Part shown: positions 30,027-38,002 of the stretch, in pieces
Layout of the letters: the number at the start of each line of letters is the position of its first letter
How positions within the stretch are numbered: position 1 is the stretch's first letter
Source: Suicoccus acidiformans
GTDB lineage: Bacteria > Bacillota > Bacilli > Lactobacillales > Aerococcaceae
Assembly: GCF_003546865.1 (NCBI RefSeq)
Contig: NZ_CP023434.1
Location: 1,550,001-1,614,000 of the forward strand
DNA length: 64,000 bases
Direction: 5' to 3'
The notes under the pieces: model-generated
The model's database searches: none
What the model was told of the DNA's origin: nothing
What the model saw: only the letters and a program-made list of their open reading frames with translations
Made by a program: the position numbers and the translations under genes

Positions 30027-31451
30027 ATGGGAATCATTCGCTATGATTTAGAACCTCATTCGGATATCGCTTTTATCGATATGAAATCCTTCTATGCGAG
30101 TGTAGAATGTGTCGCCAGAGAATGTCATCCGCTCACGACCTCTTTATGTGTCGTGAGCCGAACGGACCACGCCAATGGTCTTATTCTGGCTGCTTCCCCA
30201 ACGTTTAAGCAAGTTTTCGGCAAGGAGAATGTGGGGCGTACGTATGACTTGCCTTTCAATATCCATACCCGCCGCTTCAATTACTCTACAGCCAGGCGCT
30301 TGAACTTGCCAACGGATTCCAATTATGTGCGCTATATTGAAAGCTGGGCACGTAAAACCTTGATTGTTCCACCAAGGATGAGCTTATACATTGAAGAGAA
30401 TATGAAGATCCAAAAGATTCTAAACCGTTACGCCCCCAAAGAAGATATTATGCCCTATTCCATCGATGAGGCTTTTGTTGATTTAACCCATTCTCTAAAG
30501 CTTTTTGTTCCTAATCCAGAACTTTCACGGCGGAGTAAGTTGGACATCATCTCAGCTGCCATCCAACGGGATATTCAAGAAGAAACGGGGATTTATTCAA
30601 CCATTGGCATGAGCAATGCTAATCCGCTGCTGGCTAAGCTCGCCTTAGATAATGAGGCTAAGACGACGAATACTATGCGAGCCAACTGGTCCTATGAAGA
30701 CGTAGAAGCTAAAGTGTGGAACATTCCGGAGATGACTGATTTCTGGGGAATCGGCAAACGTACAGAGCGGCGTTTAAATCGCATGAATATCTTCTCCATC
30801 CGTGATTTAGCCCAGAGTGATCCTGATTTACTTAAGGCAAAGATGGGCGTCATTGGCCTACAACTTTGGTTTCATGCTAATGGTGTAGATGAAAGCAATG
30901 TTCGTGAGCCTTATCAGCCAAAGGCCAAAGGCCTGGGCAATTCACAAGTGCTACCTAAAGACTACCATAGGGCTAGCGATATCGAACTTGTGCTTATGGA
31001 AATGGCAGAACAAGTAGCGATTCGCTTGCGCCGCGCCAAGTACAATACAACATGTGTCAGCATTTATGTTGGCTTTGCTGACCAAGAAGAAAAGCGCTCC
31101 ATCCATGCTCAAATGGCTGTTGACCCTACACAGAGAACTCGGGTATTAAAAGAACATGTGCGCCAGCTCTTTCGGAAGCATTACCAGGGAGGCGCTGTTC
31201 GAAGTGTAGGCGTCCGTTACAGTCGCTTCGTTGATGAGAACTACGCCTTAATTTCCCTTTTCGAAGATATGGAAAGGGTTGACAAGGAAGAGCGCCTTGA
31301 GCAGACCATCGATCACATTCGTGAACGCTTTGGCTTCTTAGCCGTCCAGCCCGCGACCGTGCTCAATGAGAATTCCCGCAGTATTGCTCGTAGCAAGCTT
31401 ATTGGTGGCCATGCTGCGGGCGGAGCGGGTGGCTTGGATGGGTTAAATTAA
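30027..31451 (+). CDS. uvrX: Y-family DNA polymerase (UvrX/YqjW type)
   Basis: A 474-residue error-prone translesion polymerase of the UmuC/UvrX branch. The catalytic palm is visible as FIDMKSFYASVE (first Asp) and YSIDEAFVDL (Asp-Glu pair); the helix-hairpin-helix thumb is FWGIGKRTERRLNRMNI; the C-terminal little-finger domain follows and ends in ARSKLIGGHAAGGAGG. UvrX/YqjW homologs occur on chromosomes, prophages and conjugative plasmids. The SOS box in its promoter shows damage induction. It is coupled by TAATG to the yolD-like gene. A housekeeping dinB is not in the window. Confidence 0.92.
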   Translation: MGIIRYDLEPHSDIAFIDMKSFYASVECVARECHPLTTSLCVVSRTDHANGLILAASPTFKQVFGKENVGRTYDLPFNIHTRRFNYSTARRLNLPTDSNYVRYIESWARKTLIVPPRMSLYIEENMKIQKILNRYAPKEDIMPYSIDEAFVDLTHSLKLFVPNPELSRRSKLDIISAAIQRDIQEETGIYSTIGMSNANPLLAKLALDNEAKTTNTMRANWSYEDVEAKVWNIPEMTDFWGIGKRTERRLNRMNIFSIRDLAQSDPDLLKAKMGVIGLQLWFHANGVDESNVREPYQPKAKGLGNSQVLPKDYHRASDIELVLMEMAEQVAIRLRRAKYNTTCVSIYVGFADQEEKRSIHAQMAVDPTQRTRVLKEHVRQLFRKHYQGGAVRSVGVRYSRFVDENYALISLFEDMERVDKEERLEQTIDHIRERFGFLAVQPATVLNENSRSIARSKLIGGHAAGGAGGLDGLN

Positions 31452-31813
31452 TGGGCTCACGAGATTATTTACCTTACCGCTCAGCTCGCCAGTATCAAGA
31501 CCGTAAGATGGCTAAGTGGATGGGTTTCTTCCTCTCAGAGCATACCAGTGCCCTCCAACAGCCCATGCTCGAAGCGAGTGACGAAATTCATGCCCAAGCC
31601 CCCAGTGATAAATTGCTCCTCATTCATCAACTTTATGCCACAAATCTCACCGCCCAGTTCCAAATTCGCGACCAGTCAAACCTTAGCCACCTCATCGGGA
31701 AGGTCACCGACATACAGAATCATACGATTGGTATCGCCAGTTCTAAAGACTATCGCTTCGTCGCTTTTGAAGACATTCTCACGATTACTTTAGTAGAAAC
31801 GATTGATACTTAA
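31451..31813 (+). CDS. YolD-like protein
   Basis: A 120-residue protein. The N-terminal SARQYQDRKMAKWMGFFLSEHTSAL resembles the YolD-like motif (R..KW.P...PEH...L), and the rest is a small beta-rich domain (FQIRDQSNLSHLIGKVTDI, FVAFEDILTITL). YolD-like proteins regularly follow UvrX/YqjW-type polymerases, and comparative analysis has proposed that they act as accessory subunits, a functional counterpart of UmuD. It starts within the uvrX stop codon and has only a weak ribosome binding site, so translation probably depends on uvrX. Confidence 0.78.
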   Translation: MGSRDYLPYRSARQYQDRKMAKWMGFFLSEHTSALQQPMLEASDEIHAQAPSDKLLLIHQLYATNLTAQFQIRDQSNLSHLIGKVTDIQNHTIGIASSKDYRFVAFEDILTITLVETIDT

Positions 31814-32961: not shown

Positions 32962-33672
32962 CTAATCATGTGACCAGTTAATAATTGGAATATCCACATT
33001 CTGATACGCATCAGTCGTTTGGTTCGCTTGAAAACCACCTTGTCTACGCTGATTGCGTCGATTAATTTCTGCTTGCGCTTCTTGAACCGTGCGAATATTC
33101 CGCTTCTCCCAATTTAATAAAATTGTATCAATGTATTTCAGGCTAAGCGCTTGATGAATCACTGCTTCTTTCAAGGCAAGTAAGATGACCGCAATGTCAT
33201 ACTGGTCGTCTAAAAGCCACTGATTAATTTGCTCCAGCTCCATCTGCGTTAAGCTGCGACCGAACTCTTCTTCGAAATGTTGAATTAGTTCACTGCGCTG
33301 CTTATAATCAGGAGCATTCTTTTGAGTGGTGTCAGTCTTCCCGTGCTTATCTAAGGCATCTAACTGTTCAAAGAAGGGACGCAAGGAATAATGATCTCTT
33401 TGCTTGCCCGTTTCATCCGGCACCAATTCAATCGTCAGGTAATTTTTGCTCATCAAGCTATTTAAATGCTGAAAGACCGTTTCATGGGACCAGCCCAATT
33501 GACGGCCAATTCTTTGCATGTCATCCGCTACCATATTCTGACGGCTGGCACTTAGAATGTAGAGTAATAACAGTGCCTCATCACTCGACAAATCTAAACG
33601 GTAAAATTGCTGAAAAAAACGATTGGGAACGGCCGTAAAACCTTCTTTAAGCCAATCATAAATCTCTGTCAT
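32962..33672 (-). CDS. dnaD: DnaD-type replication initiation protein
   Basis: A 236-residue protein with an N-terminal winged helix (about 1-100, including LSSDEALLLLYILSA) and a C-terminal DnaD domain (about 130-205; HFEEEFGRSLTQMELEQIN, AVILLALKEAVI). DnaD helps load the replicative helicase at origins in Firmicutes. The start is set at the ATG at 33672 to match the family; a GGAG lies about 14 bases before it, which is long, and an upstream ATG at 33705 without a ribosome binding site is the alternative. dnaD-nth is the Bacillus order. Confidence 0.85.
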   Translation of the reverse strand: MTEIYDWLKEGFTAVPNRFFQQFYRLDLSSDEALLLLYILSASRQNMVADDMQRIGRQLGWSHETVFQHLNSLMSKNYLTIELVPDETGKQRDHYSLRPFFEQLDALDKHGKTDTTQKNAPDYKQRSELIQHFEEEFGRSLTQMELEQINQWLLDDQYDIAVILLALKEAVIHQALSLKYIDTILLNWEKRNIRTVQEAQAEINRRNQRRQGGFQANQTTDAYQNVDIPIINWSHD

Positions 33673-33694
33673 AAAGCCTATATCATCTCCTTCC

Positions 33695-33710
33695 TTGGCA
33701 TGCATGCCAA
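33695..33710. promoter_or_regulatory. Perfect 16-base palindrome upstream of dnaD
   Basis: TTGGCATGCATGCCAA is a perfect palindrome in the 57-base gap between ypmB and dnaD. It could be an operator or form an RNA hairpin just before the dnaD ribosome binding site. No known consensus is recognised. Confidence 0.45.
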
Positions 33711-33729: not shown

Positions 33730-34209
33730 CTACAAATTCCCGATAGTCTGCACCCATTCCCCATTCTTAGCATTAATATAATAATAGGCCATACTTTGAT
33801 CCGGTGCCCGGAAAGTCACTTCCCATACAGGAAGCTCTTCCAGCAGTCCCAAACGGACATTGAGAAAGTCTTCAACGTCATTATAATTTTTGGCCAAAGA
33901 CAAGGCATCGGCTTCAGTAATTAATTCTGCATGGTCATAGTACGTCACTTCACCGCCTGCTTGAGCAATAATGGCATACATTTCTTTGCCAGAAGCATTG
34001 GTAAAGTCAAGGCTAAAGTAAGTGTCATTCGTGATTAGCCAATAGAAATTATTGACATTATCCACTTGATAGTCCGCTTCAATAATTGCGAGTGCCTCAG
34101 CTTCCGCTTGGCGAATACTTTGCTGCGATCTAGAGAAAATCAATAACAAAACAATTAATAATAGCAAAAAGAAGACAGTTAAATTTCGGACGGTTCTACT
34201 GCTCATCAT
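33730..34209 (-). CDS. ypmB: YpmB-like membrane-anchored protein
   Basis: A 159-residue protein with one N-terminal membrane segment (VRNLTVFFLLLLIVLLLIF) and an extracytoplasmic domain with two PepSY-like halves (WLITNDTYFSLDF..., PVWEVTFRAPDQSMAYYYINA). This is the YpmB/DUF5590 family, whose gene follows dinG in Bacillus and many lactobacilli. The function is unknown. It overlaps dinG by 4 bases. Confidence 0.82.
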   Translation of the reverse strand: MMSSRTVRNLTVFFLLLLIVLLLIFSRSQQSIRQAEAEALAIIEADYQVDNVNNFYWLITNDTYFSLDFTNASGKEMYAIIAQAGGEVTYYDHAELITEADALSLAKNYNDVEDFLNVRLGLLEELPVWEVTFRAPDQSMAYYYINAKNGEWVQTIGNL

Positions 34210-36782
34210 CTATCCCCCTGAGTATTTGTATAGTCAAAAGCTTGATCCGTACGAAAACTTGCCCACGCCTGCATGTCCTTGCGGAATCGGGTTGCATAAG
34301 CTTTCGTATAGACACGTTCATCAAACAAAAAGAAGTCCTCTGCTTGAAATGAGTAAAGTAATTGATTCAATAATTCTTTGAAATTCTGCATCATATTCGG
34401 CAATAGAATATCGTCGAACACTTCAAAAGTACGCTCCCCTGATGAGAGCTTCTGCATGGCCTGAACCAAAGGTTCATCCGGTGACTTAAACGGTAATTTC
34501 TGTAGCAAAACGCTCGTAGCTTGTTGGCGATAAGGCCACCAACTATTTTTGAAACTTGTCCGATGCAAGATGAGTATTTGCCGCTTCCCTTCCATCGAAC
34601 GCCGTCTCACCTTATTCAAGCTCCCCGATACACCTTGGGCTAGAATCGTATCATTAACGAGTAAGGTTTCGTGCCGTAATAAGGCTTGGTAAATCGTTTC
34701 GATGCTGGTTAAATTATTGCAAATAATAACAATCTGTTCCTGGAGCTGCTCCCGTTCATCATTAATGAATTGCGCCATCGCATTAGCATCATCCACTGGC
34801 GTTTGAAAGGCTTCCCCAATATAACTCAAAGGAACTTGAATGTCCAATGGCTGATGTGGGGCCGATTGATGTAGCCGTATAAAGTGCAGTTCATCTTTTT
34901 GGATTAAAGCGTCCACACCGCGTTGGCGTAAGAGATAACTGTCACCTAAGCTGATACATAAGATAGAATGCGGCTCCCGTAGCGTATTTAACTGAGTATC
35001 TTTAAAGATAAGTGGATTGCAATGCAAGCTTACCCGGTAAAACTGAGCATTCATATGTTCACCGGATACTTTCCAGAAATTCTTTGAAGGTAACGCTTGA
35101 ATTTGCTTGGCTAATTTCTGCCATAGGTGCAAATCGTCCAGTAAATCAGGGAGAAACTCCTGAATTTGATGAATGCGCCCCAGGCCATCAATTTCTTCAA
35201 AGAGGCGACTTAACATTGAAGCAAAGTCAGCGTGCAAATCAGCCTCCAAGGAAAGATATCGCTCATGGTAACCCCGATAAGCACTCTCCTTCGAGTAAGT
35301 TTCTTGCAAATATAAACCAGCCGTTTCTAGCAATTGATTTAAGCTATCCAACAGTCTATTTAAACGTCGACCAAGATTCGGAAGTTGTTGCTGAAAGGCA
35401 AGATCATTATAGTATTGATCTAAGTAACGCCGAATTTGCGTGAAGAATTGACTCAAGGGCAAGAGGACACTTTGCTGCTGTGTCATTGTATCGAACATCT
35501 CAGCCATATCATAAAGCATCACGACCCGGTCTTGAGCATACAATAAAGCCCGTTCCTCTTTCTGGCCAAAAGCGCCATAATCCCATTGATTCATTAGGAC
35601 AATCTTCTGTGACTGCACCCGGTCTAAAGCACGCTCATAGAAAGTATGGGGTCCGTTAAAATCACGGGCGTGGCAATACTTATCAAACATAAATTTAATT
35701 TGAATATCCGCATTTAATTCGGTAAAATCTCCCGTTTGCGTATGGGTCAACCAGACAATTGTACTGGCTAAGCTTATTTGTTCTGTTTGATTTAATTTGG
35801 TGAAATTTAACGCAAGCAACTGGTTAAAGGCTTGTAAATGCAAATAATTGCTAGGCTTTCTTATAATCAAGCCCTCTTCGGCAAAGACAGAGGCCGCTTC
35901 TCGGATTAAATGCTGCCATTGGAGCAGCTGATAATTATGTGGGACTACCAAAAGCACATTGCGGCCATCTTGCATCATTTGCCCAATGACCGCTTCGATA
36001 ACTTGAGGAGATAAAGGGAAATCACTCGGCTCAATCCATAAACGCGGCCACTTGTGAAAGGTCTCGATTAACCTATCTGCCAACACACCCGTTGAAGCCG
36101 CTAAAGGCGAAGGTGTTCGGCGCTTAATGGGTTCTTCGTGCTCTAAATAAATCTGGCAATCCCACCGATAGCACTCCGCTGCTTGAAAGAAATGCTCTGT
36201 CTCCCCAGGCAAAAGACGTACTAAAGGTGCTAAGTCACGTAATTTCTGATTCGAAAGTTTCAGCACTTCCCCGGCCAACTGATTAAGAATGACAGCTGTC
36301 ACGCGAGCATCTTCAATCGCATCATGGGCATCTTCAAAAGCAATGCCATAATACTTCGATAGCTCCAATAAATTAAAGCCAGAGGCGTGCCCGACGAGCA
36401 CTTTCGCCAGAATGACTGTATCCAAAGCTTGCGGCTTGAATTCATAGCCCGCTTTGGCAAAAGCTGCTTGCATAAAGGTTAAATCAAACTTTAAATTATG
36501 GGCCACAAAGAGGCAATCCTTTAAGCGTTCATACCATAAACTGGCGACACTTTCCCATTTAGGTGCTTGGTCAGCCTGTTCTTGCTCAATCCCCGTTAGC
36601 TTCTGAATGGTCAGTGGAATCGAACGTTCAGGATTCAGCAACATGGAGTATTCATGCTTTAATTGCCCATCCTCAATAATGCACGCCCCAATTTGAATAA
36701 TCTGGTCCCCTTGGTCGAAATGAGGTCCGGTCGTCTCCAAATCAACCACCGCAATTTTCAATTTTGCCGTATGATTGGTCAC
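34206..36782 (-). CDS. dinG: DinG-type protein: exonuclease with degenerate helicase domain
   Basis: An 858-residue protein of the Gram-positive DinG type. Residues 8-170 form a DnaQ-like 3'-5' exonuclease with all motifs: DLETTG (Asp14, Glu16), HNLKFD (Asp100) and HDAIED (His153, Asp158). The rest aligns in layout with the SF2 XPD-like helicase, and the late landmark LPFKSPDEPLVQA is recognisable, but motif I reads IEPSDFPLSPQ (about 250-260) where GTGTGKT is expected, the DEAH position reads YDMAEMF (about 424-430), and the GRLIRS position reads NQLLYS. ATP hydrolysis is therefore unlikely. The start is GTG. The gene lies between cca and ypmB. Confidence 0.88.
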   Translation of the reverse strand: MTNHTAKLKIAVVDLETTGPHFDQGDQIIQIGACIIEDGQLKHEYSMLLNPERSIPLTIQKLTGIEQEQADQAPKWESVASLWYERLKDCLFVAHNLKFDLTFMQAAFAKAGYEFKPQALDTVILAKVLVGHASGFNLLELSKYYGIAFEDAHDAIEDARVTAVILNQLAGEVLKLSNQKLRDLAPLVRLLPGETEHFFQAAECYRWDCQIYLEHEEPIKRRTPSPLAASTGVLADRLIETFHKWPRLWIEPSDFPLSPQVIEAVIGQMMQDGRNVLLVVPHNYQLLQWQHLIREAASVFAEEGLIIRKPSNYLHLQAFNQLLALNFTKLNQTEQISLASTIVWLTHTQTGDFTELNADIQIKFMFDKYCHARDFNGPHTFYERALDRVQSQKIVLMNQWDYGAFGQKEERALLYAQDRVVMLYDMAEMFDTMTQQQSVLLPLSQFFTQIRRYLDQYYNDLAFQQQLPNLGRRLNRLLDSLNQLLETAGLYLQETYSKESAYRGYHERYLSLEADLHADFASMLSRLFEEIDGLGRIHQIQEFLPDLLDDLHLWQKLAKQIQALPSKNFWKVSGEHMNAQFYRVSLHCNPLIFKDTQLNTLREPHSILCISLGDSYLLRQRGVDALIQKDELHFIRLHQSAPHQPLDIQVPLSYIGEAFQTPVDDANAMAQFINDEREQLQEQIVIICNNLTSIETIYQALLRHETLLVNDTILAQGVSGSLNKVRRRSMEGKRQILILHRTSFKNSWWPYRQQATSVLLQKLPFKSPDEPLVQAMQKLSSGERTFEVFDDILLPNMMQNFKELLNQLLYSFQAEDFFLFDERVYTKAYATRFRKDMQAWASFRTDQAFDYTNTQGDR

Positions 36783-36787
36783 AGCCT

Positions 36788-38002
36788 TCAGTCCCCTCTA
36801 ATGAAATGTGTGATGGCTTCAAGGTCATTGGGTAAATCCCCTTGAATAATAGCGCGTTCAATCCGCTCTAACCAGACGCCTATATCTTTCGTCCCCTTGG
36901 TAAGGCCAAGAATGTCCATTAAATCCTTGCCATTCACAACAATATCTTGGCGTTTCTGAATAGGTAGTTGCTGCCGCATAGTTGCTACATCTGGCAGCGG
37001 TAAGTTACGACAGGCAAACGTTTGATAAATTAAATCAACATACGCATCCGTATGGTGATAAGTGCTTTCTAAATCGAATTCCTGCTGGTCAAATTTCTCA
37101 ATGATTGTCAGCATTTCAGTGACGGCTGACATAAATTGCTTGCTAAAAGTCCATGTTCGCAATAACTGGCGTGCTTGGCTGCCTATTCTGAGCTCATATA
37201 GTAGAAACGCCCAGACTAAGGCCTCATCTCGCTCAATACCTGCCTCGATAAGGGGACTTAACCAAGTGGATAACTTAGCCAAAGCTTGCCCTATATCCGG
37301 CCGGTCAAAGCCAGGCAAATATTGATTGACACCACTTACTACTAGCAGATGGGCCGCTTGAGGAAAGGCTTCCCCTTGCAAATACTTAGACATCTCCACT
37401 CGAATACGCTCAATCGCAATCTGCTTCAATTGATGGGCATAGGCCTGAACGCCTTCATAGGTTGCTCCTTCAATTTCAAAGCCTAATTGGCTGGCGAAAC
37501 GCAAAGCACGCATCGTTCGTAAGCTATCTTCAGCGAAACGCTCCGCTGGATTACCTACCGCTCGAATATAGCCTTGTTCTAAGTCCGAAAGCCCTCCATG
37601 ATAGTCATAAATTACACCTTCAGAATCAGCCGCTAGAGCATTGATGGTGAAATCACGGCGCAAAGTATCCTCTTCTAAATTTCTAACAAAGGTTACCTCA
37701 TCCGGTCTACGAAAATCAGAATAAGTTCCTTCCGTACGAAAAGTCGTCACTTCGAAAGTCTCTCCATGATACACAACAATCATCGTACCATGCTCTTTGC
37801 CTAAATCAATCGTCGCATGAAATAAGGCTTCAATTTCGTCCGGGCGAGCACTTGACGCAATATCGACATCGTGAATCGGACGCTTTAAGAGCGTATCACG
37901 CACACAGCCCCCCACAAAATACGCCTCATAGCCGGCAGCTTCAATCCGCTCCATCACCGGTAAAGCTTCTTGAAACAATCTATGCTCTAAACTAATCAGC
38001 AT
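36788..38002 (-). CDS. cca: CCA tRNA nucleotidyltransferase
   Basis: A 404-residue class II nucleotidyltransferase that adds or repairs the 3' CCA end of tRNA. The head domain has FVGGCVRDTLL and the catalytic HDVDIA (DxD), then TFRTEGTYSDFRRPD; the neck has the DFTINALA and EDSLRTMRALRFASQLGF motifs. The helical body and tail complete it. It overlaps ypiB by 11 bases and is followed by dinG after 5 bases. Confidence 0.95.
   Translation of the reverse strand: MLISLEHRLFQEALPVMERIEAAGYEAYFVGGCVRDTLLKRPIHDVDIASSARPDEIEALFHATIDLGKEHGTMIVVYHGETFEVTTFRTEGTYSDFRRPDEVTFVRNLEEDTLRRDFTINALAADSEGVIYDYHGGLSDLEQGYIRAVGNPAERFAEDSLRTMRALRFASQLGFEIEGATYEGVQAYAHQLKQIAIERIRVEMSKYLQGEAFPQAAHLLVVSGVNQYLPGFDRPDIGQALAKLSTWLSPLIEAGIERDEALVWAFLLYELRIGSQARQLLRTWTFSKQFMSAVTEMLTIIEKFDQQEFDLESTYHHTDAYVDLIYQTFACRNLPLPDVATMRQQLPIQKRQDIVVNGKDLMDILGLTKGTKDIGVWLERIERAIIQGDLPNDLEAITHFIRGD

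Follow-up and report, generated by a model that had tools for sequence, protein, structure and literature searches.

A divergent DinG exonuclease of Suicoccus acidiformans whose helicase motor appears to be dead

The window analysed here, a stretch of 64,000 nucleotides of Suicoccus acidiformans DNA, encodes a DinG protein with a complete N-terminal exonuclease domain and a helicase body whose sequence has lost the ATP site, so that the motor is predicted to be dead. We infer that the protein probably acts as an ATP-independent 3'-5' exonuclease, in which the former motor serves as a passive, XPF-like strand grip. Motor loss recurs in relatives, and we lean slightly towards a recurrent class of ATP-independent, XPF-like clamp-exonucleases, in which at least four lineages of Bacilli have switched the motor off and kept the exonuclease and the MD2 grip. 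The locus contains the following genes:

34206–36782, minus strand: dinG, 858 aa, a DEDDh exonuclease fused to an XPD/DinG body predicted to be ATPase-dead (open reading frame, Pfam, TIGR01407, profile, and fold)
36788–38002, minus strand: cca (CCA-adding enzyme), the upstream neighbour, ending 5 bases before dinG
33730–34209, minus strand: tseB/ypmB-like gene, overlapping the dinG stop by 4 bases
32962–33705, minus strand: dnaD-like gene, following the tseB/ypmB-like gene

The dinG frame starts with GTG and runs for 858 codons with no internal stop, consistent with the initial annotation of a body kept without a frameshift, whose coordinates are correct to a few bases. The genes form a cca-dinG-tseB-dnaD block, and the location between cca and tseB/ypmB-dnaD is as in relatives. 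By tblastn, all 28 Walker-A-less loci that include flanking sequence (L003–L030) have cca upstream and tseB downstream of dinG; six other motor-dead family genomes, of genera g4, g5, and g21, fall outside this count. In B. subtilis, dinG sits in a comparable cca ... dinG-ypmA-ypmB ... dnaD region. The conserved synteny indicates that the window gene is dinG in its inherited place. A plasmid search returned no record covering 80% of the query. A pseudogene or frameshift is ruled out by the open frame, the synteny, and dN/dS in relatives.

Two open reading frames lie about 2.4 kb from dinG on the plus strand, at 30027–31451 and 31451–31813. By eye, we take the former to be a Y-family DNA polymerase of the UvrX/ImpB type and the latter a YolD-like partner. 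In B. subtilis, DinG reportedly shares a pathway with translesion polymerases.

The exonuclease domain and the positions of the helicase motifs are as follows:

36279–36755, minus strand: DEDDh exonuclease domain, residues 10–168, with D14, E16, D100, H153, and D158 all present (Pfam, alignment)
35991–36038, minus strand: motif I/Walker A position, residues 249–264, lost (alignment)
35493–35525, minus strand: motif II/DEAH position, residues 420–430, lost (alignment)
34527–34559, minus strand: motif V position, residues 742–752, lost (alignment)
34347–34385, minus strand: motif VI position, residues 800–812, lost (alignment)

Pfam yields only RNase_T and helicase C-terminal matches in the window protein. 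The RNase_T match covers residues 12–165 (1e-28). The five catalytic residues of the N-terminal DEDDh domain, as expected of an ExoDinG, are all found, in agreement with the complete exonuclease proposed initially. They are also present in every row of the main alignment, which comprises 99 proteins, 40 without Walker A (hereafter dead rows) and 59 with it; 23 of the rows come from outside the family and were hand-picked, including seven low scorers.

The helicase motifs are replaced throughout. The motif I position reads WIEPSDFPLSPQ, which contains IEPSDFPLSPQ, and the DEAH position reads LYDMAE. Motif V is KNSWW, compared with WEGxD, and motif VI is ELLNQLLYSF, with NQLLYS at its core. None of the signatures of an ATP-dependent DinG/XPD helicase, Walker A GxGK[ST], a DExH motif II, or a QxxGR motif VI, is found in the protein, and a scan of all 858 residues detects no GK[ST]. 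The alignment thus confirms the reported loss of motif I, the DEAH box, and motif VI, adds motif V to the list, and reveals no P-loop elsewhere. The helicase C-terminal match scores 17.8 bits, below the cut-off of 25.3. A second live XPD/DinG helicase is not detected in the window genome, where the single PF13307 match is the dead gene itself (20.1 bits). The same check spanned the 35 Walker-A-less genomes of the family. One of these (G022) has a second, partial PF13307 (Helicase_C_2) match in another frame, under the cut-off (C30:19056–19313; 20.5 bits), and in another motor-dead genome (G037) the sole match is partial and lies on a contig other than that of its dinG (C49:2210–2419).

The window protein scores 248.3 against TIGR01407, for which the NCBI curated cut-off is 547.7, and the case for orthology is therefore built on the synteny and the fold. 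A profile of 24 proteins, with the window protein first, matches S. aureus DinG (SaDinG; 8zef) over nearly the whole length (2.7e-136). An AlphaFold2 model has a mean pLDDT of 70 and a pTM of 0.58. Ten-residue pLDDT means are 86–97 over residues 11–170 and 62–91 over residues 661–840, but fall below 50 at residues 204–255 and 266–302. The best Foldseek matches of the model are 9ii8 and 8zef. VIA-align superimposes it on 8zef with a Z of 31.6 and an rmsd of 6.6 over 788 residues, and on E. coli DinG (6fws) with a Z of 19.3 and an rmsd of 9.2 over 569 residues. The structure prediction and superposition proposed initially hence give a full-length match to the SaDinG crystal structures. The model places a predicted XPD/DinG body fold behind the exonuclease, weakly in MD1; the fold is partly borrowed from intact DinGs, since nearly all of the 46 proteins in the underlying alignment are motor-intact. 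Taken with the locus, these features identify the protein as a divergent member of the ExoDinGs.

The body retains several residues equivalent to single-stranded DNA (ssDNA) contacts of SaDinG:

34488–34496, minus strand: LPF, residues 763–765, retained; F765 corresponds to SaDinG F804, an ssDNA contact (alignment, profile)
34416–34418, minus strand: F789, retained; corresponds to SaDinG F823, an ssDNA contact (alignment, profile)
34296–34322, minus strand: D821-E-R823...Y829, retained; R823 and Y829 correspond to SaDinG R858 and Y864, ssDNA contacts (alignment, profile)

In SaDinG, ssDNA is contacted by five residues of MD2, the second motor domain (K801, F804, F823, R858, and Y864), and alanine substitutions at these residues lead to loss of helicase activity (PMC12345164). 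The profile alignment equates them with K762, F765, F789, R823, and Y829 of the window protein. The equivalents of F804, F823, R858, and Y864 are kept in 38, 37, 37, and 38 of the 40 dead rows. They are invariant in all 29 rows of the core clade, to which the window protein belongs, and are kept in 73–82% of the 11 dead rows outside it. The K801 position is basic in 23 of 40 dead rows, compared with 56 of 59 rows with Walker A. The K336 position is basic in 19 of 40 dead rows and the K338 position mostly is not, and MD1 contacts are not specially retained in dead rows.

The ATP site has fared differently from the MD2 contacts. Twenty-three body positions are invariant in 56 intact proteins, a set without the cut frame of G010 and without G255 and G207, which have Walker A but neither motif II nor motif VI. 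Ten of these positions were assigned by the analyst to motifs I, II, V, and VI, and are kept in only 0–35% of the core clade (n = 29). The contrast of four of four contacts with none of ten ATP positions retained (Fisher p 0.001) is chiefly descriptive, because grouping by Walker A makes two of the ten losses automatic and the positions do not vary independently. Among the other nine, P764 and D821 are kept in 100% of the core clade, L763 in 97%, W344 in 90%, and G351 in 83%, while N398, Q716, L737, and P768 are kept in 10–48%. The initial idea that the body still works as a clamp gains specific support from the four of five SaDinG MD2 contacts that are invariant in the clade, although the retained MD2 residues may serve folding instead of strand binding. 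A W...TGD..EL stretch between motifs I and II (window 35712–35753, residues 344–357) is also discernible, with W344, G351, and E355 conserved in dead and intact proteins.

Motor loss is widespread among relatives. All 76 genomes of the family match the window protein, and each contributed a DinG frame. Of these, 35 genomes, and 17 of 21 genera, have no Walker A, which rules out a single-genome artefact. The genera that retain it are g3, g14, g17, and g19, and motif II has drifted in g3 and g14 (e.g. DECH, DEVQ). The suggested survey of motif I thus finds the loss common to most genera of the family and recurring outside it. At the level of the order, 246 of 295 genomes score above the TIGR01407 cut-off; only hand-picked low scorers were inspected, and 13 of 19 were aligned. 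The six unaligned are G080 (PolC-like matches only), the split or cut frames G246, G267, G271, and G282, and G308. Five of the seven aligned low scorers of other families, from three families, have no Walker A (G106, G288, G315, G272, and G079); G079 retains DE at motif II. The family of G106 and G288 (f3) contributes nine other proteins with 49–71% identity to named Enterococcus DinGs, and that of G315 and G272 (f9) contributes G083, with 58% identity to a Lactobacillus DinG. Two half-way forms, G207 and G255 (L127 and L126; family f9, genus g60), keep the GKT of Walker A and have lost motifs II and VI.

A further case is found in the Bacillaceae. The DinG of Sutcliffiella halmapala DSM 8723 (L157, 4474–7092, plus strand) has no motif I, II, or VI, but its exonuclease residues are intact and it retains LPF, F, DxR, and Y. 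This motor-dead protein stands among intact relatives. Across the class, 318 of 398 genomes score above the cut-off, a survey that by itself cannot separate a dead motor from an absent ExoDinG because the window protein's own score resembles that of a PolC match. A follow-up covered 24 hand-picked genomes, and 19 loci (L223–L241) were scanned with regular expressions. Most display the opposite pattern, with all three helicase motifs in 15 of 19 and the exonuclease start absent in 16 of 19; L224, L225, L239, and L240 each fail one helicase expression in this alignment-free scan.

The phylogeny indicates that the motor was lost independently more than once. A tree of 53 hand-picked rows (19 dead), computed with the motif columns removed, requires five changes, four of them forced by starred branches. 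A single clade of all dead rows, a group set by motif state prior to any tree, is rejected (p-AU 2.9e-9). A second tree, without Sutcliffiella, contains 79 of the 99 rows (19 were thinned and the 446-aa cut frame of G010 was dropped) and requires four changes, two of them forced. The 34 dead rows of the family form one clade in the 79-row tree (SH-aLRT 96) but not in the 53-row tree. The number of losses within the family is therefore unsure, as both trees are quick searches with long branches, which meet in the 53-row tree. The Enterococcaceae-like, Lactobacillaceae-like, and Bacillaceae losses appear as the clearer separate events.

The body of motor-dead relatives is under purifying selection about as strong as in intact DinGs. 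In close species pairs, Nei-Gojobori dN/dS of the body is 0.087–0.133 in six of seven Walker-A-less pairs, with dS saturated in one, and 0.084–0.211 in seven of nine intact pairs, with two saturated. The exonuclease values are 0.025–0.123 in the seven dead pairs and 0.039–0.152 in the nine intact pairs. Several of the dS estimates are above 1, and one genome is common to two of the seven dead pairs. The nearest tree row to the window protein is 32–33% identical, and with no close relative in the set, selection is gauged on other species and not on the window gene.

In the mechanism that we propose, the N-terminal DEDDh domain would need no ATP to trim ssDNA, RNA, or both from the 3' end. What was once the motor would be unable to bind or hydrolyse ATP by known chemistry, and MD2, by keeping its strand-gripping residues, would serve as a passive clamp, holding the substrate and offering its 3' end to the exonuclease. 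Deprived of a motor, the enzyme would halt at a stable duplex or degrade it only where breathing frees a strand. Its natural targets may include R-loop RNA or the 3' ends of pre-rRNA, which the literature lists among the substrates of the B. subtilis and Listeria enzymes. Published motor mutants of these enzymes retain the exonuclease. The Walker A mutant K290A of B. subtilis DinG loses its ssDNA-stimulated ATPase, but its degradation of ssDNA matches that of the enzyme without ATP, and its ssDNA binding is still tight (approximately 1.1 versus 0.7 nM in EDTA); toxicity of DinG overexpression requires the exonuclease and not ATP hydrolysis (PMC12525004). Listeria DinG, which acts on unprocessed rRNA, retains exonuclease activity when its DEAH box is broken by E465A (PMC12774634). 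A crystal of SaDinG with ssDNA and Ca holds seven bases on MD2 and four on the Exo domain (PMC12345164). In S. aureus, however, both DinG activities are reported as necessary for crosslink resistance (PMC12345164), and the nuclease alone may thus not do the job of DinG everywhere.

Other readings of the body have been considered. It might be a decaying, functionless relic in a gene heading towards a plain exonuclease, as suggested by the low body identity among dead proteins, lowest at residues 240–330 around the lost motif I (16% versus 31% in intact proteins), and by some short dead rows of 740–795 aa. We regard decay as improbable, however, given that body dN/dS matches that of intact DinGs, length and frame are kept in 35 of 35 dead family genomes, and the MD2 residues are invariant across the core clade. 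About as unlikely is a scaffold that binds proteins such as RecA, PolA, or ribosomal particles instead of a strand. RecA and PolA are interaction partners of B. subtilis DinG (PMC12525004), and its co-purifying proteins are mostly ribosomal (PMC3000357), but the strand contacts are the best-kept residues of the body, and Listeria DinG has no strong ribosome binding (PMC12774634).

Continued use of a nucleotide through an unrecognised, non-canonical site would fit the poorly modelled part of MD1. It is very unlikely, as GK[ST] is missing from the entire protein and four motifs are replaced together instead of one. A sequencing or assembly error, or a misaligned intact motif, is hardly credible: the window genome is a single contig and 99% complete, 34 other genomes of the family show the same loss, and the alignment puts all motifs in place in intact rows. 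The passive clamp-exonuclease remains our preferred reading. Sequence, synteny, fold match, and comparative data together favour an exonuclease with a pseudo-helicase body, as the initial annotation had proposed.

S. aureus DinG was at first reported to lack helicase activity. The earlier view of staphylococcal DinG as chiefly a nuclease has been superseded, as 5'-3' helicase activity is now reported (PMC12345164), and the window protein is therefore further removed from it than first thought. The window protein resembles the ExoDinGs of Bacillota (S. aureus 8zef/9ii8, B. subtilis, and Listeria) in its full-length DEDDh plus MD1/pFeS/Arch/MD2 architecture, its MD2 ssDNA contacts, and a neighbourhood similar to that in B. 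subtilis-like genomes. However, these members retain the ATP motifs, all of which the window protein has lost; B. subtilis DinG is an ssDNA-stimulated ATPase and S. aureus DinG has reported helicase activity. Lactobacillales ExoDinGs have no iron-sulphur cysteines according to the review PMC11981726, which defines ExoDinG and pExoDinG. Like pExoDinG, the window protein is a DinG minus one of two activities, but it is the mirror image, since in pExoDinG the exonuclease centre is incomplete and the ATPase site intact (PMC11981726), and the window protein shows the reverse.

Beyond DinG, XPF of XPF-ERCC1 likewise contains an SF2 helicase-like module without ATP residues, which binds and is still required for full nuclease activity (PMC7048804). 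The likeness is of mechanism and not of membership, as XPF is a different nuclease, an endonuclease, with another domain order. Utp25 is a eukaryotic ribosome-assembly factor that, unlike the window protein, is not known to carry an exonuclease fusion. It is reported as a pseudohelicase (PMC9539457). An ATPase-dead ExoDinG is not described in the consulted parts of the DinG review (PMC11981726), nor was a report found in a search of open-licence papers. The ATPase-dead form is a variant of the known ExoDinG kind and apparently unreported; its recurrence, and the split between a lost ATP site and a kept grip, may surprise specialists.

Whether Gram-positive DinG works mainly as a helicase or as a nuclease is disputed, with helicase activity reported for S. 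aureus in 2025, no robust unwinding in B. subtilis, and rRNA quality control in Listeria. Lineages that keep the nuclease without the motor chemistry would be natural separation-of-function experiments, and motor-dead DinGs would be ATP-free enzymes for asking what the body does for the exonuclease. The annotation 'DinG helicase' in these genera is no guarantee of unwinding. The repeated loss of the motor in relatives suggests that trimming, not unwinding, is the job worth keeping. If the recurrent class is real, the selected function of ExoDinG here would be the trimming of 3' ends (R-loop RNA, pre-rRNA, 3' flaps), and unwinding would be dispensable.
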